DNA from: Cytophagaceae bacterium
GTDB lineage: Bacteria; Bacteroidota; Bacteroidia; Cytophagales; UBA9547
NCBI GenBank assembly: GCA_027488865.1
Contig: JAIYAU010000033.1
Span: 1-64,000 of the forward strand
Length of the DNA: 64,000 nt
Reading direction: 5' to 3'
This document shows positions 166 through 61,387 of this stretch, one piece after another. Both the position numbers and the translations under genes were made by a program. The notes under the pieces were generated by a model. The model was given only the letters and a program-made list of their open reading frames with translations. It was not told where the DNA came from and did no database searches. The stretch's first letter is position 1; each line of letters starts with the position of its first letter.

Positions 166-1008
166 TTAAAATAACTTAATACTTTCACACTGCACCACGG
201 AGCCATCACCTTTAGCACGCACAACAGCAATAATTTTACATTGTTCAATTCTCCAGTCTATTGAAGGCGCAAAAGTAAAAGTCCGCTCAATGGAAGTGCC
301 TTTATTGGTAGGATTTTCAAAAATACTTTGGTTGGGTACAGGCTGTAAGTCTTTGCGCAAAACGTCATGATGTACATAGTCTTCAATATCTTCTGGTTCT
401 AGACTATAATCTCGTTGCCAATTGACTACACTATCCTCAGTAATATAAAGTTTTAATTCCATTGCTTCATTGGAAGAAGCATTTAATCTAACAGTTATTT
501 TGCCAGAAATTTGATTATTGGCATTTAAGATGTCGCTAAATTCAATTTTAACCAAACTACTGTCCGCCAATCGCTTATTAATGGCAGCGGCCCAATTGGT
601 AGGTGTTAATATTTTGGTATTGTTAAACCCTGTTCGGTCTATCATACCTTTTGGTGTACCAGTGACCGTTACCCCGTATTCTGTGTCTAATTGATCGCCT
701 GCTGTAGTTTTAAAATCGTAGTCAAAAGGCTGACCAGCTTTAGAAACATTCGCAAAAAAGCCAGCATGAATGGTAATTACCTCAATTTTATCACCAAATA
801 CTTTCTTTAGTTCAGCGATGGTTTTTCCTCCATTGCTGGGGCAGTTGCCACATTTATGACCGGTATAGTATTCAACAAGCACCTTTTTATCTGAAGCACG
901 CTGCGTTAATTTTTCTTCGATTTGATCAAGTGGTACTACATCACAACTTGAAACCAGCCAAGATATTGCAATACAAATACTTAATCTTAAAACAATTAGA
1001 TTTTTCAT
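166..1008 (-). CDS. Omp28-related outer-membrane lipoprotein, thioredoxin-like
   Basis: The 280-residue protein begins with a hydrophobic signal ending in a lipobox (LVSSC, Cys22), so it should be a lipoprotein. Residues 43-60 contain a YYTGHKCGNC stretch with a CxxC pair (Cys53/Cys56) at the start of a thioredoxin-like fold, the signature of Omp28-related proteins in Bacteroidota. The C-terminal half has beta-rich segments typical of the family. It is the last gene of a minus-strand cluster (3853 to 166), 8 bp after the DUF6029-like barrel gene. The biochemical role is unknown; a redox or surface-assembly role is inferred from the CxxC motif and neighbours. Confidence 0.85.
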   Translation of the reverse strand: MKNLIVLRLSICIAISWLVSSCDVVPLDQIEEKLTQRASDKKVLVEYYTGHKCGNCPSNGGKTIAELKKVFGDKIEVITIHAGFFANVSKAGQPFDYDFKTTAGDQLDTEYGVTVTGTPKGMIDRTGFNNTKILTPTNWAAAINKRLADSSLVKIEFSDILNANNQISGKITVRLNASSNEAMELKLYITEDSVVNWQRDYSLEPEDIEDYVHHDVLRKDLQPVPNQSIFENPTNKGTSIERTFTFAPSIDWRIEQCKIIAVVRAKGDGSVVQCESIKLF

Positions 1009-1016
1009 ATTTTCTA

Positions 1017-2654
1017 TTAAAAACTACTTGATAAACTCACTGATAACCCGTTGGTTGCTGGTACTAATCTACACAAGCCACCTACACAAACCACGCCAGC
1101 TCTTTGTCTACCATAGCCTATGGTAAATCTTGTAGTACCTTTAATTATTCCCACATTTCCATTAATATAATGAACCGCAAGAGTCTCATCTTTATTGCCA
1201 TAATTATAGTCATCATTAATCGAGGCAAAAAACATTGGACTTATATTGTATTCTAATAACAGTGAAGCCCAATCTCCTCTGTCTTGTGCGGTTTTTAGCC
1301 ATTGCACCTGTGTTTTGAGGGTATGTTTTGGTTTAAGCTTATAAGAAAAGTCGATGACACCAATATTGGAATAAATAGTACCATCATATTCGGCAATTCT
1401 CAGTACTTTATTATTCGCTTCAATATAAAAGTAACTGGTAATTACTTTCGCATTTTTATTTAGCTTTTTATTTATTTCTATTTGAAAGCTTTTATACAAA
1501 ACATTATCACCTGCTTTGGTAAAATCAGATTCATAGCCTAACACATTTTTTGTTTGCTTTTTGTGAATATCATTAATGTGGCAATAGTTAAGTAAATACA
1601 TTGTTCCGTATTGTCCACCTAAGCTACTCTCAGGCACAAAACGACCTGATACTTCTGACTGAAAACCCATTTCACCCAACGGCTGGGTGGCGTAAGGATA
1701 CAAAGTAGTAAGTCCATAACTTAGCTGCGGTGTGATGGGCGGCAAATAGTTGATGAGCAAATTATTACCCGACTCTCCCCTATCGCTTCTAAAATCCATG
1801 TTGTCTATTCGTTTTAGATTTAGCGAAAATCCTATCGTTGATCGTGTATAGGACAAATTGAGCAGATAAGCATTTCCAGTTTTATAAATATTAGCGTTTG
1901 TAAAAGATGGATCGTTAATTTTATAGGCATATTCAGAAGCCAAAGAAAAATCCTTATAAACAATGCCCGTCCGTACGGCGCCTCCAGCCACGTTTTCAGG
2001 TAATTTTAAGATAGGATCCTCGTCTTTTTGATATTTACTTACAAAACTCCCCCCTAAGGAAAGTTTTACAGGACTCATTGATAAACTAGCGATACTTTCA
2101 TTTAACTGAATATCAACATCTGCCCCACGAATTGTACCAGCTCCTTTATTAAAAAAATAACGTTGGTGGCCTGCCAAGGCAGTGATATTTATTCCTTTAT
2201 ATATATTTGACTTAACCCGAAATCCATCTATTGAATTGTCAAATCCCAAAGACCAACTTTGGTAAGATCTTAAGAGAAGACCATTTCCAAACTGCTCATA
2301 AAAATTACCAGCGGTCACTTCTATCCCGTTAAACTTATATTCAACAAAACGATTGGCAATGCCACTGCCAGTCCACCTACTGTCGTAGCCCAACAACACA
2401 GGCTGATAGGCCTCAAATCTTACTCCTGCCTTTAAGTTTCCTCTGGTAAAATTGAGCTGCAAGAGGCTATTAGAACCAATCTTTTCCTTTACCTCAGGTA
2501 CACCAATGACAGAATCCTTTTGATACCACTGAAAATCAGATTGAAAATTTCCATGAATTTGACCCAAATCCTGACTTAATACCTGGGCAGACAGGTTAAA
2601 CGTATTCACCAAAATAAAACCTAATATTCCTAGAAATAACCTGAATTGCACCAT
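1017..2654 (-). CDS. DUF6029-like outer-membrane beta-barrel protein
   Basis: The 545-residue protein has an N-terminal Sec signal (about residues 1-23, ending LSAQ) followed by a long run of amphipathic strands and a C-terminal VSLSSSF ending, as expected of an outer-membrane barrel. An early segment (IHGNFQSDFQWYQKDS) and the later NFYEQFGNGLLLRSY motif match my recollection of the DUF6029 family, which in Bacteroidota sits next to Omp28 and TlpA-like genes. Here it lies 1 bp after the TlpA-like gene and 8 bp before the Omp28 gene, indicating co-transcription. Function is not known; a channel or surface scaffold partnered with the CxxC proteins is plausible. Confidence 0.8.
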   Translation of the reverse strand: MVQFRLFLGILGFILVNTFNLSAQVLSQDLGQIHGNFQSDFQWYQKDSVIGVPEVKEKIGSNSLLQLNFTRGNLKAGVRFEAYQPVLLGYDSRWTGSGIANRFVEYKFNGIEVTAGNFYEQFGNGLLLRSYQSWSLGFDNSIDGFRVKSNIYKGINITALAGHQRYFFNKGAGTIRGADVDIQLNESIASLSMSPVKLSLGGSFVSKYQKDEDPILKLPENVAGGAVRTGIVYKDFSLASEYAYKINDPSFTNANIYKTGNAYLLNLSYTRSTIGFSLNLKRIDNMDFRSDRGESGNNLLINYLPPITPQLSYGLTTLYPYATQPLGEMGFQSEVSGRFVPESSLGGQYGTMYLLNYCHINDIHKKQTKNVLGYESDFTKAGDNVLYKSFQIEINKKLNKNAKVITSYFYIEANNKVLRIAEYDGTIYSNIGVIDFSYKLKPKHTLKTQVQWLKTAQDRGDWASLLLEYNISPMFFASINDDYNYGNKDETLAVHYINGNVGIIKGTTRFTIGYGRQRAGVVCVGGLCRLVPATNGLSVSLSSSF

Positions 2655-2655
2655 A

Positions 2656-3138
2656 TTATTTCAATTTTCTTATTTGAGCAAGAAGAAGTTCCTCATCCCC
2701 AGCAATGTACGAACTATGCTGCCATACAATTTGCCCCATTCCATTGATTAGAATGGTGTGTGGCACTTCGTTGATATTAAAGGCGCGTTTTAAATCAGCA
2801 TTTGAATCTAGATAAATTTCAAATGGCCACCCACGACTTTTGGTAAAGGGCTTTACCTTCCCTTGACTACGTACATCATCAACCGAAATTGCAATAAATT
2901 TAACTCCGGTCTCAGACACCCAATCTGAATGCTGATCTGTAATGTTATCAAGTTCTAAAATACATGGCTTACACCAAGTAGCCCAAAAACTTAAAACCAC
3001 TGGCCCGTTATGCTTTACCAACTCTTTTAGGTTAATTTGTTTTCCTTCAAGGTCTTTTACAGCTATATCAGGTATTTCTCGATCTTGTGCATACAGACAC
3101 GAAGCAACCAAAAGCAAGAATAAAGTCAATTTAGTCAT
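2656..3138 (-). CDS. TlpA/ResA-like periplasmic thioredoxin
   Basis: The 160-residue protein has an N-terminal signal peptide (about residues 1-18, CLYAQ) and a thioredoxin-family domain of the AhpC/TSA-Redoxin type. The active site FWATWCKPC places the redox cysteines at 56 and 59, and EVPHTILING supplies the conserved cis-proline region. Such proteins reduce disulfides or act in oxidative folding outside the cytoplasm. The start overlaps the end of the upstream gene (3131-3853) by 8 bp, and the stop is followed 1 bp later by the barrel gene, so the four genes are almost certainly one operon. Confidence 0.92.
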   Translation of the reverse strand: MTKLTLFLLLVASCLYAQDREIPDIAVKDLEGKQINLKELVKHNGPVVLSFWATWCKPCILELDNITDQHSDWVSETGVKFIAISVDDVRSQGKVKPFTKSRGWPFEIYLDSNADLKRAFNINEVPHTILINGMGQIVWQHSSYIAGDEELLLAQIRKLK

Positions 3139-5589: not shown

Positions 5590-5882
5590 ACCACCCCTGC
5601 CCCGTTCTTGAAAAAAGGAGTGAAATTCTAATTCGAATTAAAAAGCCAATTCAAATTTTCTTGTTTTCAACGTAAAATACTTGCACAAATCCCAAAAATA
5701 CACTCATGGCTGCAGTTCCCCCCCTGTTTAATAACTTAACCACCCCTCCTTGAAAAAAGGAGGGGAATTCTAGCGCAACCTAAAAAAACCAATTCAAATT
5801 TTGTTGTTTTCAAAGTCCAATACTTCCCCAAATCTCTCATGGCTGCTGTTCCCCTCCTTTTTAAGGAGGGGTTAGGGGTGGT
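5590..5882 (+). repeat. tandem pair of imperfect ~149-bp direct repeats capped by a palindrome
   Basis: Two units begin at 5590 and 5739 with ACCACCCCT(G/C)C and share TTGAAAAAAGGAG, CCAATTCAAATTTT, TTGTTTTCAA, AATACTT and CTCATGGCTGC in the same order. The second unit ends with CCCCTCCTTTTTAAGGAGGGG followed by TTAGGGGTGGTT, the inverse of the unit's own first bases, so it is bounded by an inverted repeat. No open reading frame of note lies inside. The content (CCACCCCTCC/GGAGGGG) resembles intergenic palindromic repeats scattered in Bacteroidota genomes. Confidence 0.8.
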
Positions 5883-6050: not shown

Positions 6051-6281
6051 ATGCAGCTACATGAGAAAAAACTTTACGTGATTGAGCAATTGATTATGCT
6101 TAATGATACAAAGGCTATTAAGAAAATAGAATCGATTATAAATGACTCATTCAAGAGACCTAAGTTGAAACCATTAACTATGGACGAACTTGCTGAAAGG
6201 ACAAAAAAGGCAAATCAAGATATTTCTGATGGAAAAGTTTTTTCACAGGAAGAGGTAGAAGGATTAACCAACAAATGGTAG
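6051..6281 (+). CDS. antitoxin of a RelE/ParE-type toxin-antitoxin pair
   Basis: This 76-residue protein is predicted to be mostly helical, with an N-terminal helix (EKKLYVIEQLIMLNDTKAIKKIESII) and a C-terminal region rich in charged residues (MDELAERTKKANQDISDGKVFSQEEVEGL). This matches the small antitoxins found before RelE/ParE toxins in Bacteroidota. The toxin gene begins 4 bp downstream. It lacks an obvious classical DNA-binding motif, so autoregulation is inferred from family knowledge only. Confidence 0.85.
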   Translation: MQLHEKKLYVIEQLIMLNDTKAIKKIESIINDSFKRPKLKPLTMDELAERTKKANQDISDGKVFSQEEVEGLTNKW

Positions 6282-6285
6282 GCTT

Positions 6286-6591
6286 ATGAGGGTCTTTTGG
6301 ACATCTTTTGCTTTGAATTCCTTGAAAGAAATTTACGATTATTATAAAGAATTTGCAAGTATACAGGTAGCTAAAAACATCAAAAATAGCATTTTAAGTA
6401 CTACTTCCCAGTTATCCACCCATCCACTATCTGGTACCAGAGAAGAGCTGTTGAAGAATTTTAACGAAGACTATCGGTATATAATAAGAGGGAACTATAA
6501 AGTTATCTATAAAATCAAAGATAAAGATATTTATATAACAGACGTATTCGATACACGCCAAAATCCGGATAAAATCAAAAATCAATCATAG
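6286..6591 (+). CDS. RelE/ParE family toxin
   Basis: The 101-residue protein has the family layout: an N-terminal strand and helix (VFWTSFALNSLKEIYDYYKEFAS), the conserved segment HPLSGTREEL, and the C-terminal strands YRYIIRGNYKVIYKIKDKDIYITDVFDTRQNP. The R-x-Y/V-I-Y-K pattern and DVFDTRQNP ending are typical of ParE/RelE toxins that act on gyrase or on ribosome-bound mRNA; which target applies is not decidable here. It is intact and full length, and co-transcribed with the antitoxin. Confidence 0.9.
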   Translation: MRVFWTSFALNSLKEIYDYYKEFASIQVAKNIKNSILSTTSQLSTHPLSGTREELLKNFNEDYRYIIRGNYKVIYKIKDKDIYITDVFDTRQNPDKIKNQS

Positions 6592-6740
6592 AAGGTAATA
6601 GAGCAGAATTTCCAATTTCTCGAAAAATAAAACTTTCCGGAAATTATAAAAACAGAAAGCATTTCTAGTGTGCAAGAAATACGATTGCAGCTTCAACCTT
6701 GTTCCGATTTAAAAACCATTCTAATTAGAAATAGCTAATC

Positions 6741-6966
6741 TTCCCGCATTTTGTATCATCTTTCCGCATTTTGCATTCATTATTCGGAAAGATCATTCAT
6801 TTATCTAAAAATGTGTTCTAAATTTAATTTCTGAACTATAAAATTAACTTTAATAAGAATTAGAAGTTTTTATTACCATTTTTAAGAATTTTGCATCACT
6901 TTTCTGACTTTTGCATCAGTTTTCCGAAATAAACATCCAAAATTCGGAAAAAGTATCATTTATTCG
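6741..6966 (+). repeat. two diverged direct repeats with internal TTTTGCATCA units
   Basis: The unit at 6741-6803 contains CATTTTGTATCATCTTTCCG, CATTTTGCATTCATT, TTCGGAAA and ATCATTCATTTAT. The unit at 6880-6966 has ATTTTGCATCACTTTTCTGA, CTTTTGCATCAGTTTTCCGA, ATTCGGAAA and TATCATTTATTC in the same order. Each unit therefore carries two TTTTGCATCA-like steps, then an inverted CGGAA, then an ATCATTtAT end. Confidence 0.65.
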
Positions 6967-6970
6967 AATT

Positions 6971-7046
6971 CCTCTGGTGCGGAAGTTCACTTCCGTACCC
7001 AAAACAATATAGGAACTTAGTTCCGAAAGTTGCAATCCAATACGGT
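6971..7046 (+). repeat. two-hairpin dispersed repeat, copy a
   Basis: GTGCGGAAGT-TC-ACTTCCGTAC forms the first hairpin and GGAACTTAGTTCC the second, joined by CCAAAAC. The block ends with TTGCAATCCAATACGG. Related copies lie at 7935-7996 and 56186-56261 (inverted), 8841-8919 and 58183-58250 (same strand), with a degenerate copy at 55374-55408. Paired bases vary together between copies. Confidence 0.8.
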
Positions 7047-7174
7047 AGCTACTGGCATAATTTTCAAGCTAGCGGACATCCGTTGGTGATATTATATAAA
7101 AAGGCGTCCGCCCAGCCATCACGTTCATTTAGTTACTTTCTTACTGCGCACGCCTTCCTACTGTCTGTTAAATA

Positions 7175-7696
7175 CTAGGTCGTGTTGTAAAAGCCGAGCT
7201 TGCCTAAACTAGTACATTGCTTGGTATTCATAATTTGTACATAACGTTGCAAGATAGGCAAAGCTGGTTTTATTACTTTTGAGGCTCCAGACCTTCTTCT
7301 GCCTTTGCTTGGTTGCATCTGGTGTATTTCTTCTAAAATGGCCTCCCAACTAGCATATTTCGACGCTAAGGGCAATGGCAATGGAATATGAATACCTTTA
7401 AGGAAGTATTGCGTGGCCAACAAATGAATGTTATTCTTCTTTTTGTTTTTGGCCATGGCAGTGTATGCTGCCTTGATTTCAGGTATTAACATGGCTTGGT
7501 TGGCATAGTGTACTGCGTCGCGGAACTTGCTGCGGCTTTTCTGTTGCTTGGGTGTGTTGGATACTGGCCCTGAGTACTTTAGATAATGCACGATGTGCCC
7601 GCCCTTTTGCCGACGAAACACCCAGTTGCCAAATGTGCCTACCACACCTTTTAATAATCCAGCTTTTATGAGATACTCCAATCGATCACGTTCCAT
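7175..7696 (-). CDS. uncharacterised basic protein, Bacteroidota-type small family
   Basis: The ATG at 7696 (MERDRLEYLIKAGLLKG) is preferred over a GTG at 7735 because a TATCTTTG promoter element lies just upstream of it and because the diverged duplicate near 58.5 kb keeps exactly this promoter and start. The 173-residue product has a G-x-x-GNWVFRRQKGGHIV motif, a KQQKSRSKFRDAVHYANQAML helix and a basic GRRRSGASK patch; it has no signal peptide. The layout recalls a multi-copy family of unknown function in Bacteroidota with a 'GxxGN-VFRK' start and '-Q-KFR-A--YA' helix. I cannot assign a function. Confidence 0.7.
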   Translation of the reverse strand: MERDRLEYLIKAGLLKGVVGTFGNWVFRRQKGGHIVHYLKYSGPVSNTPKQQKSRSKFRDAVHYANQAMLIPEIKAAYTAMAKNKKKNNIHLLATQYFLKGIHIPLPLPLASKYASWEAILEEIHQMQPSKGRRRSGASKVIKPALPILQRYVQIMNTKQCTSLGKLGFYNTT

Positions 7697-7996
7697 ACCA
7701 CAAAGATAATTTGGCGCAGTGCAACCAGCGTGCACGGTGATAAAAAGTTTAAGGTTAGTTAAAAGAAAAAGGGAACATACTCGAAGGATGTTTGGAAGAT
7801 GACCGTAGGATAGGCTTAAATAGAGGGTTTTCTTTCGTGAATTATAATTGAATAAATAAATATTTTGATTAAGATTGTAAAGGATGTTGGGAATTGGATT
7901 TGAGTATAATGGATAGAGGTCATGGTATTGCTATGTAACTAACGTAACAAAGTTCCTATAACGTTTTGGGTGCGGAAGTAAACTTCCGCACCAGAG
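7684..7996 (-). repeat. long inverted repeat, left copy (partner at 58186-58540)
   Basis: Read on the minus strand, this block matches 58186-58540 on the plus strand. Positions 7802-7887 and 58305-58390 are an exact 86-base match, and the flanks are similar with small differences and one ~17-base insertion in the right copy. The repeat covers the first codons, the promoter and about 290 bases upstream of the 7175-7696 gene, and ends in a two-hairpin repeat copy. Confidence 0.95.
7701..7708 (-). promoter_or_regulatory. promoter -7 element for the 7175-7696 gene
   Basis: TATCTTTG on the minus strand lies only 4 bases upstream of the ATG at 7696, so the transcript would be nearly or fully leaderless. 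The element is kept in the diverged duplicate (58485-58492) at the same distance from its ATG. Confidence 0.6.
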
Positions 7997-8149
7997 GACT
8001 CCATATTCACGAAATCCATCCTGTTAAATTTGGGGGTAGCCCAACAGATATGTCTAACAAAATTTTCTTAACCCCTTCTCAGCATTCGCAATACACTAAT
8101 TTTTGGAATTCATTAATGAGAAGTACTAAATAAATAAATAGTTAAAGTA

Positions 8150-8515
8150 ATGGCAACAATAGATAGAAATACAGCTCCGACAGTACAAGAAGTCGAAGAG
8201 TTTTTAGAACAAATTGATTTTACTTTACCAAAAGGATTTATTGAGTTTTTTAAAGAGTCAAATGGTGCAGATATTAGCACAGATGAAAGTTATACACTTT
8301 TATGGGCATTGACAGATATGATTCAACTTAATAAAGATTATAGTGTAGAAGATTATGCACCTGAATTCTTCATTTTTGGCTCTGATGGCGGAGATACAGC
8401 TTATGCAATAGAAAAAAGTACAAGCGATATTTATGAAATGCCGTTTATTGGAATGTCAAAGGAAGAAGCTGTTTTTAAAAGTAAAACCTTTACAGAATTT
8501 ATAGAGAGTTTTTAA
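8150..8515 (+). CDS. SMI1/KNR4 (SUKH) family protein, orphan immunity-type
   Basis: The 121-residue acidic protein shows the SUKH order: an N-terminal helix (VQEVEEFLEQIDFTLPKGFIEFFKESNGADI), then a strand WALTDMIQLNKDY, the FFIFGSDGGDTAYAI motif, and a closing helix (SKTFTEFIESF). SUKH proteins commonly protect cells from nuclease or other polymorphic toxins. No toxin gene is adjacent. The gene stands alone between repeat-rich non-coding stretches, which fits an acquired or leftover immunity gene. A housekeeping role cannot be excluded. Confidence 0.85.
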   Translation: MATIDRNTAPTVQEVEEFLEQIDFTLPKGFIEFFKESNGADISTDESYTLLWALTDMIQLNKDYSVEDYAPEFFIFGSDGGDTAYAIEKSTSDIYEMPFIGMSKEEAVFKSKTFTEFIESF

Positions 8516-8926
8516 TTAGAACAACAACCCTTTCTGTCAGTAGTCTTGCTGTTGGAGCCAATACACACCTTTGGACTCTATATTTTGCTTACAACGATGG
8601 TAAATTTGCTAGTAGAATTGGTATCAATGCTCCTTGGGTTCCCGCTGGCGCCGACGTCCGTCGGTGCTACCCCCTTCTGTCTGTAGTGTTCGATGTTGTT
8701 CCAGTTCGTAGTCTAAACGCAGTGGGACTACGAACCCTTTCTATCCGTAGAGTTAGCTTGCGCTCTACGGATTATATAATGACTGTAGAGTCTCCGACTC
8801 GGATTCCTGCCATAACACATGCGATAGCTCCAGTAAGTCTCCCTCTAGTGCGGAAGTTCAGTTCCGCACCCAAAACGTAACAGGAACTTCGTTCCGAAAC
8901 CTGCCCTCCAATACCGTTTGTAATAG
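8516..8926. other. gene-free stretch with an array of perfect hairpins
   Basis: It contains CCGAC-GTCC-GTCGG (8651-8664), GTTCGTAGTC/GACTACGAAC (8704-8713 with 8726-8735), ATCCGTAGAG/CTCTACGGAT (8743-8752 with 8763-8772) and GACT-GTAG-AGTC (8781-8792). These are followed by a two-hairpin repeat copy (8841-8919). It is more GC-rich than the surrounding DNA. A 64-codon open frame across it is judged non-coding. Confidence 0.75.
8841..8919 (+). repeat. two-hairpin dispersed repeat, copy c
   Basis: GTGCGGAA-GTTCAG-TTCCGCAC is a perfect 8-bp stem, followed by CCAAAAC and the GGAACTTCGTTCC hairpin, then CTCCAATACCG. Compared with copy a, the first stem changes on both arms so that pairing is kept. 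Confidence 0.85.
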
Positions 8927-9056
8927 CGTTGAAACATTTGGAATGTTAAATCATTATGTAGACTTTTGTTACGTTAAGAGAAAATTTGTTGGTGACGCCC
9001 CGTAAATGAATAAGACTTCAAAATGACATGTGAGGCTAAACACCAACACGGGCGGA
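8927..9056 (+). repeat. interleaved-inverted-repeat element, copy 1
   Basis: The element begins GCGTTGAAACATTTGGAATG and ends with GGCGGA. GTTGGTG (8988-8994) pairs with CACCAAC (9041-9047), and CGCCCCGT (8996-9003) is complementary, with one bulge, to ACGGGCG (9048-9054). The two stems interleave, giving a pseudoknot-type topology. Copies lie at 9724-9808 (same strand), 56044-56176 and 58561-58690 (opposite strand). It ends 77 bases before the gene at 9134. Confidence 0.8.
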
Positions 9057-9133
9057 AATGTTATTAAATTTTGGAAGTTGGTTAATTGATGGCGCTTTTG
9101 AACAAATCTTTATAACCGAAAATTCTTTACAAA

Positions 9134-9661
9134 ATGGTTGGAGACCAAGATAATCATTTATATTATCGAATAAATCGAAAGGATTTTTTCAAAACAACGT
9201 CTAATACAATATTTGCCTCAATTTTTATTATGGTTTTAATTGGGTATTATATTAGATTAGCAATTATTAATGGAGGAAACCTCGAACGACTATCTCTGTT
9301 TTTTATTCCTTTAGCTTTGTTCATGCTTCCATCTATAATCCTGAGTATTAACTATTGGTTGATATCGATAAATTATAAAATTGGGATGGATCAACTTAAA
9401 CAAGTTCTTTATGTTAAGAGGAAAAACATAATAATTGAATACAAATTCGACGATATTGATAATATTTTGCATGTTTGTGGAAATCCAAATGGAGTTACCA
9501 ATATTGGTGGACACCCAGTTGGAAGATTTTTCTTTTTTAAATTAATCATGAAAAACGGTGAGGTTTATATAATTACTTCCTTCATGACTGATAGAAATTT
9601 TATGATTTATAGACGTTCTATTGAAGTTAAAAAGACGCTTTTCCCAATTGCCATTTGCTAG
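9134..9661 (+). CDS. small membrane protein with PH-like C-terminal region, unknown function
   Basis: The 175-residue protein has two predicted transmembrane segments (about 24-45 and 54-77) and then a soluble beta-rich region of about 95 residues, reminiscent of bacterial PH-type domains (YKIGMDQLKQVLYVKRKNIIIEYKFDDIDNI). No catalytic motif is visible. It is bracketed by two copies of the interleaved-repeat element in the same orientation. The gene at 55415-56005 has a similar architecture and the same repeat upstream. Function unknown. Confidence 0.65.
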   Translation: MVGDQDNHLYYRINRKDFFKTTSNTIFASIFIMVLIGYYIRLAIINGGNLERLSLFFIPLALFMLPSIILSINYWLISINYKIGMDQLKQVLYVKRKNIIIEYKFDDIDNILHVCGNPNGVTNIGGHPVGRFFFFKLIMKNGEVYIITSFMTDRNFMIYRRSIEVKKTLFPIAIC

Positions 9662-9723
9662 TGCGGAGTTTGCCTACCCATATAGCCCTCGTTGCTCTTA
9701 TAGTTTAAACAAGGATAGGTGTA

Positions 9724-9808
9724 AGTTAAGAAAAATTTGTTGGTGACGCCCCGTAAATGAATAAGACTTCAAAATGACATGTGAGGCTAAACACCAACAC
9801 GGGCGGAA
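9724..9808 (+). repeat. interleaved-inverted-repeat element, copy 2 (shorter)
   Basis: From AAAATTTGTTGGTGACG to GGGCGGAAA this copy is base-for-base the same as copy 1 over about 75 bases, including both complementary pairs (9739-9745 with 9792-9798; the CGCCCCGT block with 9799-9805). It lacks the upstream half seen in the other copies. Confidence 0.9.
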
Positions 9809-9924
9809 AATAGCCCCAGCAGCCCCTCCCTTGAAAATATTTAATTATTGAACTCCTTATTACTTAAAATATTATTTGATATTAATATTTTTACAATTAA
9901 ATTAGTTTTAATAAGGGTTATTTA

Positions 9925-9932
9925 TATTTTTG
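9925..9932 (+). promoter_or_regulatory. putative -7 element for the porin operon
   Basis: TATTTTTG matches TAnnTTTG and is followed by about 108 bases of AT-rich leader before the ATG at 10041. The rest of 9809-10040 has no coding content. Confidence 0.4.
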
Positions 9933-10040
9933 TAACCTGATATTGATACATCCGTTTAAAAAAACACTTGATTTAGCGATTTTTTATAAACCAAGTTTTT
10001 TGTTTGCTAATTTATTCTGAAATTTTTAATAAACCCTATT

Positions 10041-11111
10041 ATGAAATCGAAATTCCTTTATTTGCTTTTATTCGTTGTGTTAATTGATTTATTTGCACAA
10101 GAAACAAGTATTCGCTTTTTTAGCCACCCCGGATTTGAGTACCAACACCATGCTGACAGTGGTACGGGCAATCCTTATTTTAGAGGTGGTCCATTAATTT
10201 TGTTTGCCACTTCCCAGATAACCGAAAATATTACAGCTGGTGCGGAACTTAATGCGCACTATATGGTGGAAACTGGTGCTGAGGTTGAAATTGAACGTAT
10301 TTTTGTTAAGTATTATCACAATGACTATATTAGTTTACGTGTGGGTAGAATGTATACCCCCATTGGCTTTTGGAATCTGAACTATAATTTTGGTTTGATT
10401 TTACAACCCAATATTGCCCGCCCAATGGCACTTAATCCTACACATGATGGCGGATTTGCCCTTACCAGAGATGCTGGAATTCAATTAGAAGGTGAAAAGA
10501 TTGGCAAAGCAGGCCTTTTTTATAAATTCTTCTTAAGCAATGGCATCGGAAAAAACGGAGGTTTATTAGGTTCATCCGATAGAATGGGAAGAACGAATTG
10601 TTTTACTGGCCAAATAGGTATAGAACCAGTTGACGGTGTAAAATTTATCGCTTCAGGCCAGTTTAATAAGTTAAATAAAGGGCAGCTTAACCAATATGGT
10701 GCAGCACTTCCTGAATCAGTAGATTATATGGTAGGTAATTTTTCGGTGGTATATCTTAACCCAGATAAAAAATTGGAGTTTATTGCAGAGTATTTTAATA
10801 CACAATATAAATATCAAACACTAGGAAGCCATACCATACAAAGTGGTGTTGCTTATTTAGGCTATAAACTTACAGATCGTGCAATACCTTATGTGTTTTA
10901 TGAATCTTCAATTTTCGGAGATAAAAATCCATATTTTCCTTCAATAAACGAATACATAGGCAGGCCATTTCAAAGTGTAAGCAAATATGATGTGGGTTTT
11001 AGATATAAAATCAATACGAACTTAGTGTTTAAAGTAGAAGGTGGGCTACAGTTTGAAGATAACTATGGAACATTAATTAATGCAAAAACACAATTGGCTT
11101 TTGCATTTTAA
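10041..11111 (+). CDS. outer-membrane porin, phosphate-selective OprP/O-like
   Basis: The 356-residue protein has a signal peptide (to about residue 19, LFAQ) and a 16-18-strand barrel pattern ending in TQLAFAF. Segments such as EIERIFVKYYHNDYISLRVGRMYTPIGFWN resemble the porin OprO/OprP family, with the conserved 'VGR-y-pFG' turn. It leads a cluster with a PstS-like protein and a HAMP-GAF sensor, which supports a link to phosphate or another small anion. Substrate specificity is inferred. Confidence 0.8.
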   Translation: MKSKFLYLLLFVVLIDLFAQETSIRFFSHPGFEYQHHADSGTGNPYFRGGPLILFATSQITENITAGAELNAHYMVETGAEVEIERIFVKYYHNDYISLRVGRMYTPIGFWNLNYNFGLILQPNIARPMALNPTHDGGFALTRDAGIQLEGEKIGKAGLFYKFFLSNGIGKNGGLLGSSDRMGRTNCFTGQIGIEPVDGVKFIASGQFNKLNKGQLNQYGAALPESVDYMVGNFSVVYLNPDKKLEFIAEYFNTQYKYQTLGSHTIQSGVAYLGYKLTDRAIPYVFYESSIFGDKNPYFPSINEYIGRPFQSVSKYDVGFRYKINTNLVFKVEGGLQFEDNYGTLINAKTQLAFAF

Positions 11112-11142
11112 AGATTTCTCTTAAATATTAATTTATAATATT

Positions 11143-11592
11143 ATGAAAAATTATAATTGGATAATAGGTTTTTTCTTGTTGGGTTTTGTGCTAGCCATGA
11201 AACCAAATGCCCCTATCATTGTGGTGATTGTGAATCCCGCTAATCCTATAACTGCTTTATCTGCTGGTGAGACTAAACTATATTGGTTGAGAAAAATAAA
11301 GAAACGATGGCCTACTATTAATAAAAATATCAAGCCTGCTGATAGAAAATCTAAATGCGCAGAACAAGATATCTTTTATTCAAAAGTTCTAGCAATGACG
11401 GCCAATGACGTAGAAACATATTTTACTCAAAAACAATACGAAAACGCAGAAAAACCACAAGATAAATTTACCTCCGATGCTGAAATCATCAATTTTGTAG
11501 CGAGTGAAATGGGCGCAATAGGTTTTGTAAATGCTGCCTCACTTACTGGTGAGGCCAAATCAAAAGTTAAAGAAATTCTAACCGTACAATAA
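11143..11592 (+). CDS. PstS-like small periplasmic substrate-binding protein
   Basis: The 149-residue protein has an N-terminal signal/anchor segment (residues 1-20) and the features of the short phosphate-binding-like domain: VIVNPANPITALSAGETKLYWLRKIKKRWP near the start and a late AEIINFVASEMGAIGFVNAASL segment. It is about half the size of a true PstS, so it may bind ligand as a one-lobe sensor rather than serve a transporter. No ABC transporter genes are nearby. It lies 31 bp after the porin and 7 bp before the sensor gene. Confidence 0.8.
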   Translation: MKNYNWIIGFFLLGFVLAMKPNAPIIVVIVNPANPITALSAGETKLYWLRKIKKRWPTINKNIKPADRKSKCAEQDIFYSKVLAMTANDVETYFTQKQYENAEKPQDKFTSDAEIINFVASEMGAIGFVNAASLTGEAKSKVKEILTVQ

Positions 11593-11599
11593 ATTGGAT

Positions 11600-13234
11600 A
11601 TGAAAATATCACTCAAAAATAGTTTGGTTGGTAAAATAATTCTAGGTTATTTATCTGTTGTAGCACTGGGTCTTGTGATGTCTGCTGTGGGCGTATTCAT
11701 ACTTAACAATACACAAAGTTATGATAAAGACATCACCGAGAAATATTTTCCTTCTTTAATATTGCTCAAGGATCAGCTTTCCACTGCCACAGAAAGTCAA
11801 AGATTAACCAGTAATTGGATTTACCAACCTAATAAGCAGGACAAAGCTCGTTTAAATCAATTGCATGAGGTAGAATATAAAACACTCATTCAAAAATGGG
11901 ACGATCAAATTCAAAAGTACGATGCTGTTAGTCAGGCCGAAGACAGTTTGTCTTCGATTTCCAATTTGCTTGGTAAACTCGCGGAGCAACAACAAAAAAT
12001 AACCACATTGCTAGGGAGTGATGAGGACTATGGCAATGACCAAGTTGTTGATAATTGTATTACCATATTTGAAAATGAAGCTACAAAAACCTTTGCGAGC
12101 CTAGAACATCTTCTGCAAAAACAAATAAATGAACAATATGACCTTATGAACATTACCGATGACAAAAAGAACTTTTACTCTTTTATTCTTAGGATGGTGT
12201 TTGGTGTTACACTATTGATTTTTGCTATAATAGCTGTATTGGCGACCTATTTATGTTTAAAAAACATATCTAAACCCATCGAAACGCTAAAAAATCAAGC
12301 TAATGCTATGGCCTTGGGTCGTTTTGATATTGATATTGATATTAATCAAAACGACGAAATCGGTGATATGGCCAAAGCCATGAGCAACATAATTGTTGGT
12401 TTAAAAAAGAAAACAACATTTGCCATGCGCATTGGAGAAGGTAATTATGATGAAAATTTTGAACTCCTTTCAGAAGAAGATGAAATGGGTAAAGCACTGC
12501 TTACCATGAAAGACAATCTAAAATTGAATGCAGAAGAAGATAAAATTCGTAATTGGACTACCCACGGACTAGCACAGTTTGGCGAAATATTAAGAGAAAA
12601 TAATTCCTCCAATTCAAACCTTTTAGATAAGGTGTTAAAGTTTATCGTGAAGTACTTAAATGCTAACCAAGCTGCATTATTTTTGCTGGAAGAAGATGTA
12701 GAGCTTAAGCGAGAAATATTAAAACTGGCAGCTTGTTATGCTTATGAACGTAAAAAATATCTTGATCTTAAAGTAGAAATAGGGGAAGGTTTGCTAGGAC
12801 AAGCTGTTCTTGAAAGAGAAATGACCTATTTAACTGATATTCCTGAAGGTTTTGTTCGCATTTCATCAGGACTGGGCGATAGCGGCCCCAATGCGGTGGT
12901 TATTACACCTATTATGCACAATAATTTGGTATTAGGCGTAATTGAAATTGCCTCATTTACTAAATTTGAGGCACATCACTTGCAGTTTATAGAAAAAATA
13001 GCAGAATCTTTAGGGTCTACTATATCAAATGTTCGTACTAATGAACGAACCAAAAAGCTGCTGGAAGCCTCTCAATCATTTACTGAACAAATGAGGAGCC
13101 AAGAGGAGGAAATTCGTCAGAATATGGAGGAATTATTAGCAACACAAGAAGAAGCCAATCGCAAATTGTCCAATCTGGAGCAACTTTTAATAGAAAAAGA
13201 CGCAGAAATAGCCATTTTTAAAGCTAAGAATTAA
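11600..13234 (+). CDS. membrane sensor with periplasmic domain, HAMP and GAF domains, no output kinase
   Basis: The ATG at 11600 is preferred to a TTG two codons earlier. The 544-residue protein has TM1 (about 11-36), a helical periplasmic domain, TM2 (about 195-220), HAMP (about 220-275, KNISKPIETLKNQANAMALGRFD), a second helical linker, a GAF domain (about 335-480, ending GVIEIASFTKFEAHHLQFIEKIAESLG) and a C-terminal coiled coil (EEEIRQNMEELLATQEE). No histidine kinase, GGDEF or full MCP signalling tip is present. It is the third gene of the porin/PstS-like operon. An adaptor role in signalling is inferred. Confidence 0.85.
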   Translation: MKISLKNSLVGKIILGYLSVVALGLVMSAVGVFILNNTQSYDKDITEKYFPSLILLKDQLSTATESQRLTSNWIYQPNKQDKARLNQLHEVEYKTLIQKWDDQIQKYDAVSQAEDSLSSISNLLGKLAEQQQKITTLLGSDEDYGNDQVVDNCITIFENEATKTFASLEHLLQKQINEQYDLMNITDDKKNFYSFILRMVFGVTLLIFAIIAVLATYLCLKNISKPIETLKNQANAMALGRFDIDIDINQNDEIGDMAKAMSNIIVGLKKKTTFAMRIGEGNYDENFELLSEEDEMGKALLTMKDNLKLNAEEDKIRNWTTHGLAQFGEILRENNSSNSNLLDKVLKFIVKYLNANQAALFLLEEDVELKREILKLAACYAYERKKYLDLKVEIGEGLLGQAVLEREMTYLTDIPEGFVRISSGLGDSGPNAVVITPIMHNNLVLGVIEIASFTKFEAHHLQFIEKIAESLGSTISNVRTNERTKKLLEASQSFTEQMRSQEEEIRQNMEELLATQEEANRKLSNLEQLLIEKDAEIAIFKAKN

Positions 13235-13606: not shown

Positions 13607-13948
13607 TGGTGGTTAGAATTTAATGGTGTTGCAGTGATATATTATTAATGGAACAAAATATTTGTTCATCCCACTTTATGCATTAAGGTATTTAACAATT
13701 CTAAATCATTAAGTTGTATCAAATAACGATTGTTAATATTATAAATTTTCCAGATATACATAATATCTAATTCGCTAGTGCATAAAATGGGTTTATGGTT
13801 TATATAGATATCGTTTATCTATGATGCTATTATCCTAGGCTTGGAGATATAACAAACTGAATATTAAATTCTTTTAAAAAAAATAGGATTTACAAAAACA
13901 CTCCTCGTTAACATTGGCAACGCCACACAACAAGGAGTGTTAATGATA
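13607..13948. other. gene-free stretch with terminator of the downstream minus-strand gene
   Basis: AT-rich, with no open frame of interest. It separates the convergent genes at 13606 and 13949. The only structure seen is the hairpin at 13898-13940. Confidence 0.6.
13898..13940 (-). terminator. terminator of the T9SS protein gene 13949-16606
   Basis: On the minus strand ACACTCCT (13940-13933) pairs with AGGAGTGT (13905-13898), with a 27-base loop, and is followed by TTTTTG. It lies just past the stop codon at 13949. Confidence 0.65.
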
Positions 13949-36123: not shown

Positions 36124-36897
36124 CTAAATTAATCCTATCAAAGTCATTTTTCGAACCAACTGTACCATATTTTTGCAATCCGCCTTTTCTAGTATGTTTT
36201 TGCGGTGGTTGCGAACGGTTTCATTGGAAATATGGAGTTTGTTGGCTATTTCTACGCTACTCAAACCTTCTGCGAGAAGTGAAATAATTTCAACCTCTCG
36301 GTTGCTAAAATAATATTGATGTTCCTCGTGACGAACAAAATCATATTTCAAATTAAAATAAGATGGTTCTCCTTTCAGCCCAATAAAAGAAATAGAATAA
36401 TCATTTTCTTTGGTCAAGTGGCTAATATCCGTATGTATATTCAATGATTTTGCAGTCCGTCCCAAATGATCGACACTTAAATTCAACGATTGGTGGAGAA
36501 AAAGTCTGTAACTACCATCTGCCACCTTGAATCGAAAGCTATAACTTAATTTATAAAAAGTGGATTTCTGCCATAATAGCTGGTTTTCACCTAAGTAATA
36601 GGAACATAATGATTCAGACTTAGCCACATGTTCCATATCATCAGGATGTATTAAGCTTAATATTTCGTCCAAAGTAACATTGGACAAATCTATGCCATGT
36701 ATTTCCTTCATCGATTGACTCACATGCGAAATACTTCTGTCGGAAAAATCTATGATAAAAAAATAGGTTGGCCCTGAGGAAAATATACTGCCTGCCAATT
36801 CTTCAATATTGAGTTCAGGTAATTCTATTTTAATTGGCGAAACCATACCATGGGTGTTCCAAACGTTGTGCATTTTTTGAATATCTGGCTTATTCAT
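36124..36897 (-). CDS. LuxR-type transcriptional regulator with PAS-like sensor domain, copy 2
   Basis: The ATG at 36897 (MNKPDIQKMHNVWN) matches the start of the neighbouring paralogue; an open frame upstream of it is only the paralogue's end read in another frame. The 257-residue protein has a PAS/PAC-like N-terminal region (YFFIIDFSDRSISHVSQSMKEIHGID) and a LuxR-type helix-turn-helix (FSNREVEIISLLAEGLSSVEIANKLHISNETVRNHRKNIL). No phospho-acceptor domain is present. It probably regulates the adjacent T9SS genes or itself. Confidence 0.88.
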   Translation of the reverse strand: MNKPDIQKMHNVWNTHGMVSPIKIELPELNIEELAGSIFSSGPTYFFIIDFSDRSISHVSQSMKEIHGIDLSNVTLDEILSLIHPDDMEHVAKSESLCSYYLGENQLLWQKSTFYKLSYSFRFKVADGSYRLFLHQSLNLSVDHLGRTAKSLNIHTDISHLTKENDYSISFIGLKGEPSYFNLKYDFVRHEEHQYYFSNREVEIISLLAEGLSSVEIANKLHISNETVRNHRKNILEKADCKNMVQLVRKMTLIGLI

Positions 36898-36911
36898 CTT
36901 TCGAATAAAAT

Positions 36912-37682
36912 TTAGATCAAGCCTATCAACGTCATTTTTCGAACCAACTGTACCATATTTTTGCAATCCGCCTTTTCTAGTATGTTTTTGCGGTGGTTGC
37001 GAACGGTTTCATTGGAAATGTGGAGTTTGTTGGCTATTTCAACACTACTCAAACCTTCTGCGAGAAGTGAAATAATTTCAACTTCTCGGTTACTGAAAAT
37101 ATGTTTTTTGTTTTCAAGGTCAAAATGGTCATAGGAAAGGTTAAAATAAGAAGGCTCCCCCCTTAATCCAATAAAAGATACGGTATAGTTATTTTTACTA
37201 GCAAAGTGACTTATGTCGGTGTGGATGTTCAGAGAACGTGCGGTTTTCCCTTGATCATCTACACCTAACGTTAAAGCTTGGTGCAAAAAAAGCCTGTAAC
37301 TTCCATCGGTCACCTTAAACCTGAATGAATAACAAACTTTATAAGTGGTTGCCTTCTGCCAGAGAATATGGTTTTCAAAAAAAGACCTAGCACAAAAATA
37401 TTCAGCCTTCGCCACATGATCCATGTCATCGGGATGAATGATACTTAAAATGTCATCCAAAGTGACACTTTGTGGGTCAAATCCATGTATATCTTTAATG
37501 GACTGGCTCACATTTGATATGCTTTTATCTGAAAAATCAATGATATAATAATACGTTGGCCCTGAGGAAAATACATTTCCAACCAGTTCTTCTAAGTTTA
37601 ATGCAGGTAGTTCAATTTTGGATTCGGAAATCACACCTTTTATATTCCAAATCGCATGCATTTTCGATATTTCAGTATTCAT
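36912..37682 (-). CDS. LuxR-type transcriptional regulator with PAS-like sensor domain, copy 1
   Basis: The 256-residue paralogue of the gene at 36124-36897 lies 14 bp upstream of it. The domain order is the same: a PAS-like sensor in the first ~180 residues and a LuxR HTH at the end. Over the last ~60 codons the two proteins are identical (FSNREVEIISLL to MTLIGLI) and the DNA is almost identical, while the sensor halves have clearly diverged, pointing to conversion of the 3' ends. Confidence 0.88.
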   Translation of the reverse strand: MNTEISKMHAIWNIKGVISESKIELPALNLEELVGNVFSSGPTYYYIIDFSDKSISNVSQSIKDIHGFDPQSVTLDDILSIIHPDDMDHVAKAEYFCARSFFENHILWQKATTYKVCYSFRFKVTDGSYRLFLHQALTLGVDDQGKTARSLNIHTDISHFASKNNYTVSFIGLRGEPSYFNLSYDHFDLENKKHIFSNREVEIISLLAEGLSSVEIANKLHISNETVRNHRKNILEKADCKNMVQLVRKMTLIGLI

Positions 37683-52992: not shown

Positions 52993-53757
52993 ATGGTGGC
53001 TGTTGTAAATTCCTTTCTTGAAGAACTTGCCAATTTGTATTTGTTTGTAATTCGCTTTTTCAAAGAAGTATTTACGCCTAGGTATGAATTAAGTGAGCTA
53101 GCCAAACAATGTTTTACAATTGGTTATAAATCTTTTCCGTTGGTTGCAATTACTGGTTTTATCATGGGGCTAGTGCTTACCATCCAATCCAGGCCCACCA
53201 TGGCGGAGTTTGGGGCTACATCTTGGCTGCCTGCCATGGTTGCGGTTTCCATCATTAGAGAAATTGGCCCTGTAATCACTGCACTTATTTTTGCCGGAAA
53301 GGTTGGCTCGGGCATTGGTGCTGAACTCGCTTCTATGAAAGTGACAGAACAAATAGACGCCATGGAGGTGTCAGGTACTAATCCTTATAAATATATTGTG
53401 GTTACCAGGGTAGTAGCCGCTACATTAATGCTTCCCTTACTTGTAATACTAGGAGATGCAGTAGGATTGTATGGCGCTTATGTAGGAGTAAATATTAAAG
53501 GAGAGGTGAGTTGGACCCTTTTTTGGTACAATGTTTTTCAAAAAGTGGTTTTTTCTGATGTATTTCCTGCTTTGGTAAAAACCTTCTTCTTTGGTTTTTC
53601 AATCGCCATCATCAGCTGTTACAAGGGCTATAGTGCAAATAGTGGCACTGAAGGAGTGGGTGCTTCTGCCAATTCTTCCGTTGTTTTTGGTTCTCTGTCC
53701 ATTTTTGTTATCGATATGTTGGCCGTGCAAATTACCGATCTATTCTTTACGCCATGA
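52993..53757 (+). CDS. mlaE: MlaE-like ABC transporter permease
   Basis: The ATG at 52993 (MVAVVNSFLEEL) is preferred over an in-frame TTG inside dps. The 254-residue protein has five to six hydrophobic helices and the MlaE motifs ITGFIMGLVLTIQSRPTMAEFGA and FAGKVGSGIGAELASMKVTEQIDAMEVSG. It pairs with MlaF- and MlaD-like proteins downstream for retrograde phospholipid transport. Its stop overlaps the mlaF start (ATGA). Confidence 0.93.
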   Translation: MVAVVNSFLEELANLYLFVIRFFKEVFTPRYELSELAKQCFTIGYKSFPLVAITGFIMGLVLTIQSRPTMAEFGATSWLPAMVAVSIIREIGPVITALIFAGKVGSGIGAELASMKVTEQIDAMEVSGTNPYKYIVVTRVVAATLMLPLLVILGDAVGLYGAYVGVNIKGEVSWTLFWYNVFQKVVFSDVFPALVKTFFFGFSIAIISCYKGYSANSGTEGVGASANSSVVFGSLSIFVIDMLAVQITDLFFTP

Positions 53758-54482
53758 GTCCTACTGTAGTCGAAATAACCCATCTTAAAAAATCCTTTGG
53801 TTCTAATAATGTACTGGAAGATGTGAGCTTGTCGCTTGTAAAAGGCGAGAATTTAGTAATTCTGGGTAAATCTGGCTCTGGTAAATCAGTTTTAATCAAA
53901 TGTCTGATAGGGCTTCTAACTGCTGACGATGGACAAATAAACCTTTTTGAAAAAAACATCGGTGAGCTAGATGAAACCAATCTAAATGTAATGCGCAAAA
54001 GGATTGGATTTCTATTTCAAAGTGCTGCTTTGTACGATTCTATGACGGTAAGGGAAAATTTAATGTTCCCACTTCGAGAACTTACTGATTCGTCTAAGCA
54101 AGAAAAAGATAACTTGGTTAACGAGGCACTTACGAATGTTGGTTTGCTTGAAGCTATAGATAAAATGCCTTCTGAACTCTCAGGGGGTATGAAAAAACGC
54201 ATTGGCTTGGCTAGGGCGCTTATAATGAAACCAGAAATTTTACTCTACGACGAGCCTACTACTGGGCTAGATCCTATCACTGCCAAAGAAATAAGCTATT
54301 TGATATTAGCCATACAAAAAAAATACGAGGCTGCTGCTATTATCATTACCCATGATGTAGAATGTGCAAAAATAACGGCCAACAGAATTATGATTATTAA
54401 AGATGGTTTGGTAAAAGCACAAGGTACTTACCAAGAGTTATTTCAATCACAAGACGATTGGGTAAAATCGTTTTTTCATTAA
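53754..54482 (+). CDS. mlaF: MlaF-like ABC transporter ATP-binding protein
   Basis: The 242-residue protein has Walker A (GKSGSGKSV), the Q-loop, the ABC signature (ELSGGMKKRIGLARAL), Walker B (ILLYDEPTTGLDP) and an H-loop (ITHDVECAKIT). The 4-bp overlap with mlaE and the following mlaD-like gene show it belongs to the Mla-type lipid transport set. Confidence 0.95.
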   Translation: MSPTVVEITHLKKSFGSNNVLEDVSLSLVKGENLVILGKSGSGKSVLIKCLIGLLTADDGQINLFEKNIGELDETNLNVMRKRIGFLFQSAALYDSMTVRENLMFPLRELTDSSKQEKDNLVNEALTNVGLLEAIDKMPSELSGGMKKRIGLARALIMKPEILLYDEPTTGLDPITAKEISYLILAIQKKYEAAAIIITHDVECAKITANRIMIIKDGLVKAQGTYQELFQSQDDWVKSFFH

Positions 54483-56005: not shown

Positions 56006-56043
56006 AGTTTAATTTTTTTGGTTTATTGGTTATTTTCTGCAAT

Positions 56044-56176
56044 TCCGCCATTGATTGGTGTTTAGCCACACAAGTCATTCTGAAGTCTTATTACCATGAC
56101 AGAGCGTGACTAGTACCTTTCCTTGCCCTTGACAAAAATCTGCATAATGAACCAACATTCCAAATGAATCAACGCC
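56044..56176 (-). repeat. interleaved-inverted-repeat element, copy 4
   Basis: On the minus strand this reads GGCGTTGATTCATTTGGAATGTTGGTTCATTATGC at its start and CTAAACACCAATCAATGGCGG at its end, matching the other copies in order. The stem sequences are more diverged (CTAGTCACGCTCTGT in place of GTTGGTGACGCCCCGT), so pairing is weakened. It ends 38 bases before the start of the 55415-56005 gene. Confidence 0.75.
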
Positions 56177-56185
56177 TAGTTCAAG

Positions 56186-56261
56186 GAATATTGGACTGCA
56201 ATTTTCGAAACAAAGTTCCTAAAAATGTTTTGGGTACATAAGTGAACTTCCGCACCAGAGG
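56186..56261 (-). repeat. two-hairpin dispersed repeat, copy d
   Basis: On the minus strand it reads CCTCTGGTGCGGAAGTTCACTTATGTACCCAAAACATTTTTAGGAACTTTGTTTCG, the same order as copy a (6971-7046), with mismatches in both stems. The GTGCGGAAGTTCACTT core and the CCTCTGGTG lead are retained. Confidence 0.75.
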
Positions 56262-56362
56262 GGTGGCCGTTGGTGTTTGCCAACTTCTCGAAAGTTTTTA
56301 ACTTTCGGGAAGATATTAAAAAGCTTAAGTCCTTTAAACCGTTAAATTAGAACAACTAATAA

Positions 56363-58090: not shown

Positions 58091-58182
58091 AGTAAAAGGT
58101 ATTTATAATAATATGCCAAAGTTAAGAATAAAGTGAAAATCACCAATAAATTATTCTTCAAATAACCAACATGCAAACACTC

Positions 58183-58250
58183 ATCTGTTGCGGAGTTTAC
58201 TTCCGTACCCAAAACGTAGTAGGAACTTTGTTCCGATGGTTGCATAGCAA
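58183..58250 (+). repeat. two-hairpin dispersed repeat, copy e
   Basis: TGCGGAGTTTACTTCCGTACCCAAAACGTAGTAGGAACTTTGTTCCGATGGTTGCATAGCAATA follows the family order. The first stem has lost one base (GGAGT versus GGAAGT), the second stem GGAACTTTGTTCC is intact. It forms one end of the long inverted repeat. Confidence 0.8.
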
Positions 58251-58540
58251 TATCATGACCTCTATCCAATAAACATCACATACCCAACTCAAATCCAATT
58301 CCCTACATCCTTTACAATCTTAATCAAAATATTTATTTATTCAATTATAATTCACGAAAGAAAACCCTCTATTTAAGCCTATCCTACGGTTATCTTCCAA
58401 GCATCCTTCGAGTATGTTCCCTTTACTTCTCAACTAAACTTAAAACTTTTTACAACCATATTCACTGGTTGCGTTGCGCCAAATTATCTTTGTGGTATGG
58501 AATGTGATCGATTAGGCTGGATAAAAGCGTCTCGCTTTTA
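58186..58540 (+). repeat. long inverted repeat, right copy (partner at 7684-7996)
   Basis: Matches the reverse complement of 7684-7996, with 86 identical bases at 58305-58390 and good similarity either side, plus a ~17-base insertion near 58270-58290 absent from the left copy. It includes the TATCTTTG promoter element and the start codon region of the duplicated gene. Confidence 0.95.
58485..58492 (+). promoter_or_regulatory. duplicated promoter -7 element
   Basis: TATCTTTG, 4 bases before an ATG, is the counterpart of the element at 7701-7708. Here it would only drive a 17-codon frame, so it may be an orphan promoter firing into the repeat cluster. Confidence 0.5.
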
Positions 58541-58550: not shown

Positions 58551-58560
58551 ACTCTTATTT

Positions 58561-58690
58561 ACCGCCGTTGGTATTTTGACCAACAAGTCATTCTGAAGTC
58601 TTATTACACTGACGGGGCGTCACCAACAACTTTCCCTACCCATAACAAAAATCTGCATAGTGAACCAACATTCCAAATGTTTCAATGCCT
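58561..58690 (-). repeat. interleaved-inverted-repeat element, copy 3
   Basis: On the minus strand it reads AGGCATTGAAACATTTGGAATG at the start and ATACCAACGGCGGT at the end. GTTGGTGACGCCCCGT is kept exactly; CACCAAC is replaced by TACCAAC, and ACGGGCG by CGGCG, so the interleaved pairing remains possible. An extra GTTGGTC/ACCAAC pair lies near its end. Confidence 0.8.
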
Positions 58691-61188: not shown

Positions 61189-61387
61189 ATAGTACATCAA
61201 ATCAACTATTTGTACAAAACACCAATTTGTTAAACCCATTTTATCCAATAGCGAATTATGTATTTTGTATATCTTGAAAGTTTACAATAATAACAATCGT
61301 GAGTTTACGATTTTTGTTATCCAGTTCGGCTCAATCGTTATCTCGCCTACTTTATCTAAATTTTTGGTTGGTTTTGTTAGTAACTGC

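Follow-up and report, generated by a model that had tools for sequence, protein, structure and literature searches.

The window that we analyzed covers positions 1-64,000 of contig C61 (75,016 bases in all), which belongs to a genome of 4,326,669 bases (4.33 Mb) on 64 contigs. When the window was compared with itself by BLASTN, a compound repeat at 7680-7998 (+) aligned with 58513-58181 (-) over 334 columns at 85.9% identity, with 31 mismatches, 3 gap openings, and an E-value of 2.7e-109, bearing out the sequence-only reading, which had placed two inverted copies about 50 kb apart (hereafter copies 1 and 2; Table 1). That reading had also credited the pair with 86 identical bases, and the longest exact inverted match was indeed 7802-7887 versus 58305-58390, compared to 16-22 bases in 20 sequences as long as the window that were simulated with a first-order Markov model. 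Inverted copies do occupy the intervals it had proposed (7684-7996 and 58186-58540), but bases 58514-58540 lie mostly beyond the aligned similarity (58181-58513). Both end zones hold further related repeats that it had not listed, at 6970-7043, 8841-9060, 9722-9809, 56040-56262, and 58556-58690.

Several other features were observed in the window. The DNA at 5601-5864 is repeated imperfectly in tandem and contains CCCCTCCTT...AAGGAGGGG palindromes; a small ORF and, after it, a gene for a ParE-family toxin (PF05016) occupy 6051-6591 beside repeats, probably as a toxin-antitoxin pair. An SMI1/KNR4 gene is present at 8150-8515, and a Por_Secre_tail protein is also encoded. Two adjacent genes at 36124-37682 are 75% identical in DNA and look like tandem paralogs. 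Searching the whole window with Rfam at the gathering threshold gave no match.

Table 1. Repeat modules, repeat copies, and the orphan gene in the window.
Feature	Position	Strand	Details
B repeat, left end of gene-bearing unit	6971-7046	+	
Gene-bearing unit, ~1.03 kb	6971-7997	.	Inverted B hairpin repeats enclose the orphan gene and module A
Orphan gene, multi-copy family	7175-7735	-	Conserved ATG at 7696-7694; 173 residues from ATG
Copy 1, compound repeat	7680-7998	+	Module A (~7680-7830), linker, module B reversed (7925-7997)
86-base patch, mostly linker	7802-7887	+	Equals 58305-58390 reversed; candidate gene-conversion tract
B repeat, right end of gene-bearing unit	7925-7997	-	
B-C repeat	8841-9060	+	B 8841-8925, C 8926-9060
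C hairpin repeat, partial	9722-9809	+	
B-C repeat	56040-56262	-	
Copy 2, inverted remnant	58181-58513	-	A, linker, B; gene lost after about six codons
Partner of 86-base patch	58305-58390	-	Exact inverted match
C repeat adjoining copy 2	58556-58690	-	

Copies 1 and 2 are built from modules that occur in varying combinations across the genome. Module A corresponds to the 5' region of an orphan gene and consists of the start of the ORF at 7175-7735 and ~120 bp upstream of its conserved ATG, whereas module B is a repeat of ~75 bp that begins CCTCTGGTGCGGAAG and contains a 24-nt hairpin and a second small hairpin. The linker between A and B, which carries most of the 86-base patch, is present in copies 1 and 2, in a copy on contig C5, and partly in one copy on contig C36. 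The hairpin repeat of module C is longer and frequently follows B directly; by eye, it contains a short conserved frame. A second inverted pair across the block, at 13726-13795 and 61231-61300 (70 bp, 87% identical), is apparently unrelated to modules A, B, and C.

Genome-wide, the 319-bp copy 1 matched at least 43 places, and by our own count at least 13 of these include most of module A; the B-C repeat at 8841-9060 matched at least 47 places. These counts are lower bounds, as 40 of 90 candidate stretches were scored for copy 1 and 40 of 62 for 8841-9060. Counting B ourselves from the results of both searches gave at least ~35 places, again a lower bound and for a draft genome. B-C repeat DNA was found in none of 147 other genomes of the order, and an exact-pattern scan of genome_contigs, which possibly omits the organism's own genome, gave no match to the C repeat. 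At L072 (contig C28) 8822-9050, B copies appear to be nested within other B copies, an arrangement that suggests insertion of B into B.

Two inverted B arms, 83.8% identical over 74 bp, enclose the orphan gene and module A at 6971-7997. The same layout occurs on contig C5 (22705-23764), where the arms are 91.3% identical over 69 bp. An alignment of both units spans 1,067 columns at 88% identity, and their homology stops within a few bases of the B termini. These were the two places at which we found terminal inverted repeats bounding a unit, corresponding to inverted B arms at only 2 of the 12 gene loci examined, with a 16-base arm match (E 0.008) at a third gene locus, on C46. The copy at 58.2-58.5 kb retains the A-B end, and its gene stops after about six codons. 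Comparison by eye of the flanks of the two units revealed no target-site duplication.

The orphan protein matched 25 stretches of the genome. The last match is weak (30% identity, E 5e-4), and two stretches belong to one gene on contig C51, so that the sequences point to a family of about two dozen full or partial copies. By our own count, a family match lies no more than ~130 bases from a contig end on 12 contigs, and the family thus coincides with many assembly breaks. Among 14 copies, median dN/dS was 0.10 in the core of the gene and 0.51 in its tail, with dS undefined in 15 of the 91 pairs. No match to the orphan protein exceeded the cut-offs of Pfam, NCBIfam, or PHROGs, and no transposase was therefore found inside the unit. 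Peptide-pattern scans of genome_contigs and viral_contigs gave no confirmed relative. Beyond its own genome, the protein had a weak match, confined to the N-terminal part, in 1 of 240 genomes of the order, and weak, distant relatives of the N-terminal part were present in 6 of the 394 further genomes searched in the phylum, one of these relatives carrying an Ig-like match below cut-off. Predicting the fold from the single sequence gave a mean pLDDT of 43.7, which is unusable. By eye, an open frame also lies upstream of the orphan gene.

We compared B and C with REP sequences. In 20 fetched stretches, which had been picked around matches, 40 of 41 BLAST hits to B and 31 of 33 to C had midpoints beyond ORFs of at least 100 aa, compared to 9.1 and 7.1 expected, respectively. 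The B hairpin retained 93.7% of pair cells among 29 copies chosen from hits (slid versions, at most 55.3%), and the C hairpin retained 86.3% among 26 copies (slid versions, at most 48.7%). Covariation in B was weak, with one pair changed on both sides and a value of 0.054 compared to 0.077 for one slid version. For C, 9 cells had changes on both sides, a result equaled by 8 of 500 shuffles, although related sequences may exceed shuffles without structure; the first covariance model of C held 3 base pairs only and served solely to collect copies.

Like REP sequences, B is a hairpin repeat that is extragenic and present in many copies, and we regard it as resembling a REP. Its copy number may be lower, since REPs usually exceed 100 copies (PMC2817692) and B was counted at no fewer than ~35 places, and it differs in its conserved unit of ~75 bp with a second small hairpin and in bounding an unrelated orphan gene at two places. 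Module C, like REPINs (PMC3116915) and BIMEs, also forms an inverted doublet, with a spacer of ~55 bp in three cases. Four such doublets of ~270 bp (L070:4467-4739, L070:6168-6440, L038:1496-1769, and L047:1367-1635) are REPIN-like, but they are longer than the inter-REP spacings of 71 and 110 bp quoted for Pseudomonas in PMC3116915.

The genome also contains RAYT-type transposase genes. Y1_Tnp (PF01797) matched at nine places, all above cut-off, and 5 of 14 control genomes also matched. A further RAYT-like gene, C28:85221-85778, had no Pfam match at E 0.01 and was recognized by its 33% identity to the RAYT on C60 (E 5e-19) and, by eye, by its motifs. The Y1 place at C38:57936 looks IS200-like by eye, and Y1 genes are broken by stops at two places and by split frames at two. 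Six of the 10 Y1 loci (C60, C36, C27, two on C40, and C28) are bounded on both sides by an inverted repeat no more than 400 bp from the gene, at E 2e-8 or better; the other four (C38, C2, a further C40 locus, and the one at the start of C40) show no such bounding repeat. RAYT subclass 2.6 consists mostly of Bacteroidetes sequences with the motifs NH[LIV]H, WQ, and YIH[QN]NP, and its genes are flanked by atypical secondary structures that have copies elsewhere, as described in PMC6006769. The motifs in this genome (NHVH and YLHYNP at C60; NHLH and YIHQNP at C40:204 kb; NHLH, WQ, and YIHLNP at C28) are similar to those of this TnpA-REP subclass but not identical. Along with the Por_Secre_tail protein of the window, these genes suggest that the organism is a member of the Bacteroidota.

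A cognate RAYT would be expected to lie between inverted copies of its REP; no inverted B pair was seen around the gene at any of the 10 loci, one of which is cut by a contig end. B occurs on one side within ~400 bp at three of them, and a C tail occurs at C60. By eye, the hairpins flanking the RAYT genes appear to share with B a C-rich foot and a short G+C-rich stem. Because B bounds none of the Y1 loci as inverted pairs, its link to RAYTs rests on likeness and a shared genome.

The pair in the window also shows signs of exchange between repeat copies. In a three-way alignment of copy 1, copy 2, and the C5 copy (copy 3), which contained 63 variable sites or indel events, copies 1 and 2 carried the same state, different from that of copy 3, at 14 variable sites in succession (7803-7883), a run that was reached by 4 of 100,000 shuffles (p 5e-5, from three sequences only). 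To the left of this patch, ten sites in succession grouped copy 1 with copy 3 (p 0.0027); to the right, the three patterns were mixed; and the longest run common to copies 2 and 3 was 2 (p 0.63). As copy 3 differs freely within the 86-base patch, constraint explains it poorly. The mosaic is consistent with repeat copies having undergone gene conversion or crossover, events whose direction three sequences leave unpolarised. Alternatively, copies 1 and 2 may descend from a later common ancestor, other exchanges having affected the left part.

Taken together, we consider it probable, at roughly three chances in four, that the pair consists of two members of a dispersed REP-like repeat family with an amplified orphan gene, which by chance lie inverted 50 kb apart.

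The sequence-only reading had proposed instead that homologous recombination between the two copies could invert the block between them. Its claim of recombination holds insofar as copies 1 and 2 carry the mosaic signal of exchange, but the idea of the pair as a block switch is unsupported, the two being members of a family found at 43 places or more. As in known inversions by homologous recombination between inverted repeats, the copies are inverted, lie on one contig, and contain an exact run, here of 86 bases within a repeat of 86% identity; they differ in belonging to a dispersed family, whose many further copies would allow other rearrangements equally well. Base composition can be read in favor of inversion: raw GC skew, calculated in 4-kb bins, was below zero at 1-6 kb and again at 56-62 kb, and 17 of the 25 bins between 6 and 58 kb had positive values, so that the sign changes near both block ends; intergenic skew was +0.046 inside the block compared to -0.120 and -0.033 outside. 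At four-fold sites with the strands separated, however, skew differed little, from few sites, between the inside (-0.18 for plus-strand and -0.21 for minus-strand genes) and the two outside regions (-0.39 and -0.22 for plus-strand, -0.13 and -0.17 for minus-strand genes), leaving a clear difference in intergenic DNA only. The skew pattern is compatible with a past inversion but is confounded by gene orientation and repeats.

Gene order in relatives bears little on the question, the genomes examined being too distant. The fetched stretches of three genomes of the same family (G004, G007, and G009) have only three-gene blocks in common with the contig, namely 10041-13234 (G004, G007) and 166-3138 (G004, G009), which in G004 lie on different contigs; a transporter gene at 53754-54482 was also matched in the relatives' stretches, at 30-37% identity. 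No gene of the Resolvase family (PF00239) was found in the genome, compared to matches in 10 of 14 control genomes. No second orientation of the block was seen. The pair could possibly invert the 50-kb block; that it supports RecA-type homologous inversion at a low rate in living cells seems to us unlikely.

Less likely still is that the unit between the B arms is an independent transposon for which the orphan protein serves as transposase. Terminal inverted repeats around a single ORF, homology that ends at those repeats at two loci, and amplification of a family whose core is under purifying selection count in favor of this reading. Against this, the orphan protein lacks the database matches noted above, arms of this kind are absent at 10 of the 12 gene loci, and the distant homologs look like a small domain of unknown function, in one case followed by the sub-threshold Ig-like match; the fold prediction was too poor to help.

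We give least credence to the zones being integron-like cassette arrays with the repeats as attC-kind recombination sites: single-ORF runs with the B-C repeat in constant orientation do occur, as on contigs C42 and C27, but the genome has no integron integrase above cut-off (for model TIGR02249, the best stretch scored 75.4 bits against a cut-off of 265, with hits on C5, C18, and C28 only and none on the window's contig, and sub-cut-off matches in all 14 control genomes too), and the ends of the C hairpin read GTT...AAC, the reverse of attC boxes. Cassette-like single-ORF runs between B-C repeats were seen at L075 (C42) 6131-8430 and L071 (C27) 8376-10745, and the three proteins scanned from the C42 run had no Pfam match.

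For the reading that we prefer, of dispersed REP-like repeats with an amplified orphan gene, the following course of events can be envisaged. An ancestral unit would have carried the orphan gene between two inverted B copies, an arrangement that is found at 6971-7997 and on C5 and of which only the A-B end is left at 58.2-58.5 kb. B and C would have spread, now or once, as non-autonomous elements, probably with the help of RAYT-type Y1 transposases that recognize hairpins in single-stranded DNA; we infer both the mobility of B and C and the identity of the transposase that moves B. Homologous exchange between copies would then have homogenized patches such as the 86-base run.

More speculatively, and at a probability that we would call low, part of the spread of the orphan family may be due to carriage between inverted REP-like hairpins that RAYTs mobilize in trans, with the repeats exchanging by gene conversion and able to rearrange large blocks. 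The parts of the REP and RAYT papers cited here make no mention of a gene-carrying REP element.

Because copy number across the genome reveals a dispersed family, an isolated inverted pair such as this one is a poor sign of a genetic switch. As a useful by-product, the analysis brought out an amplified gene family whose core is under strong purifying selection, which has no known function, and which, among the genomes searched, is nearly restricted to its own. Should units with REP-like ends be able to transport a passenger gene, host genes could be amplified by RAYT systems.
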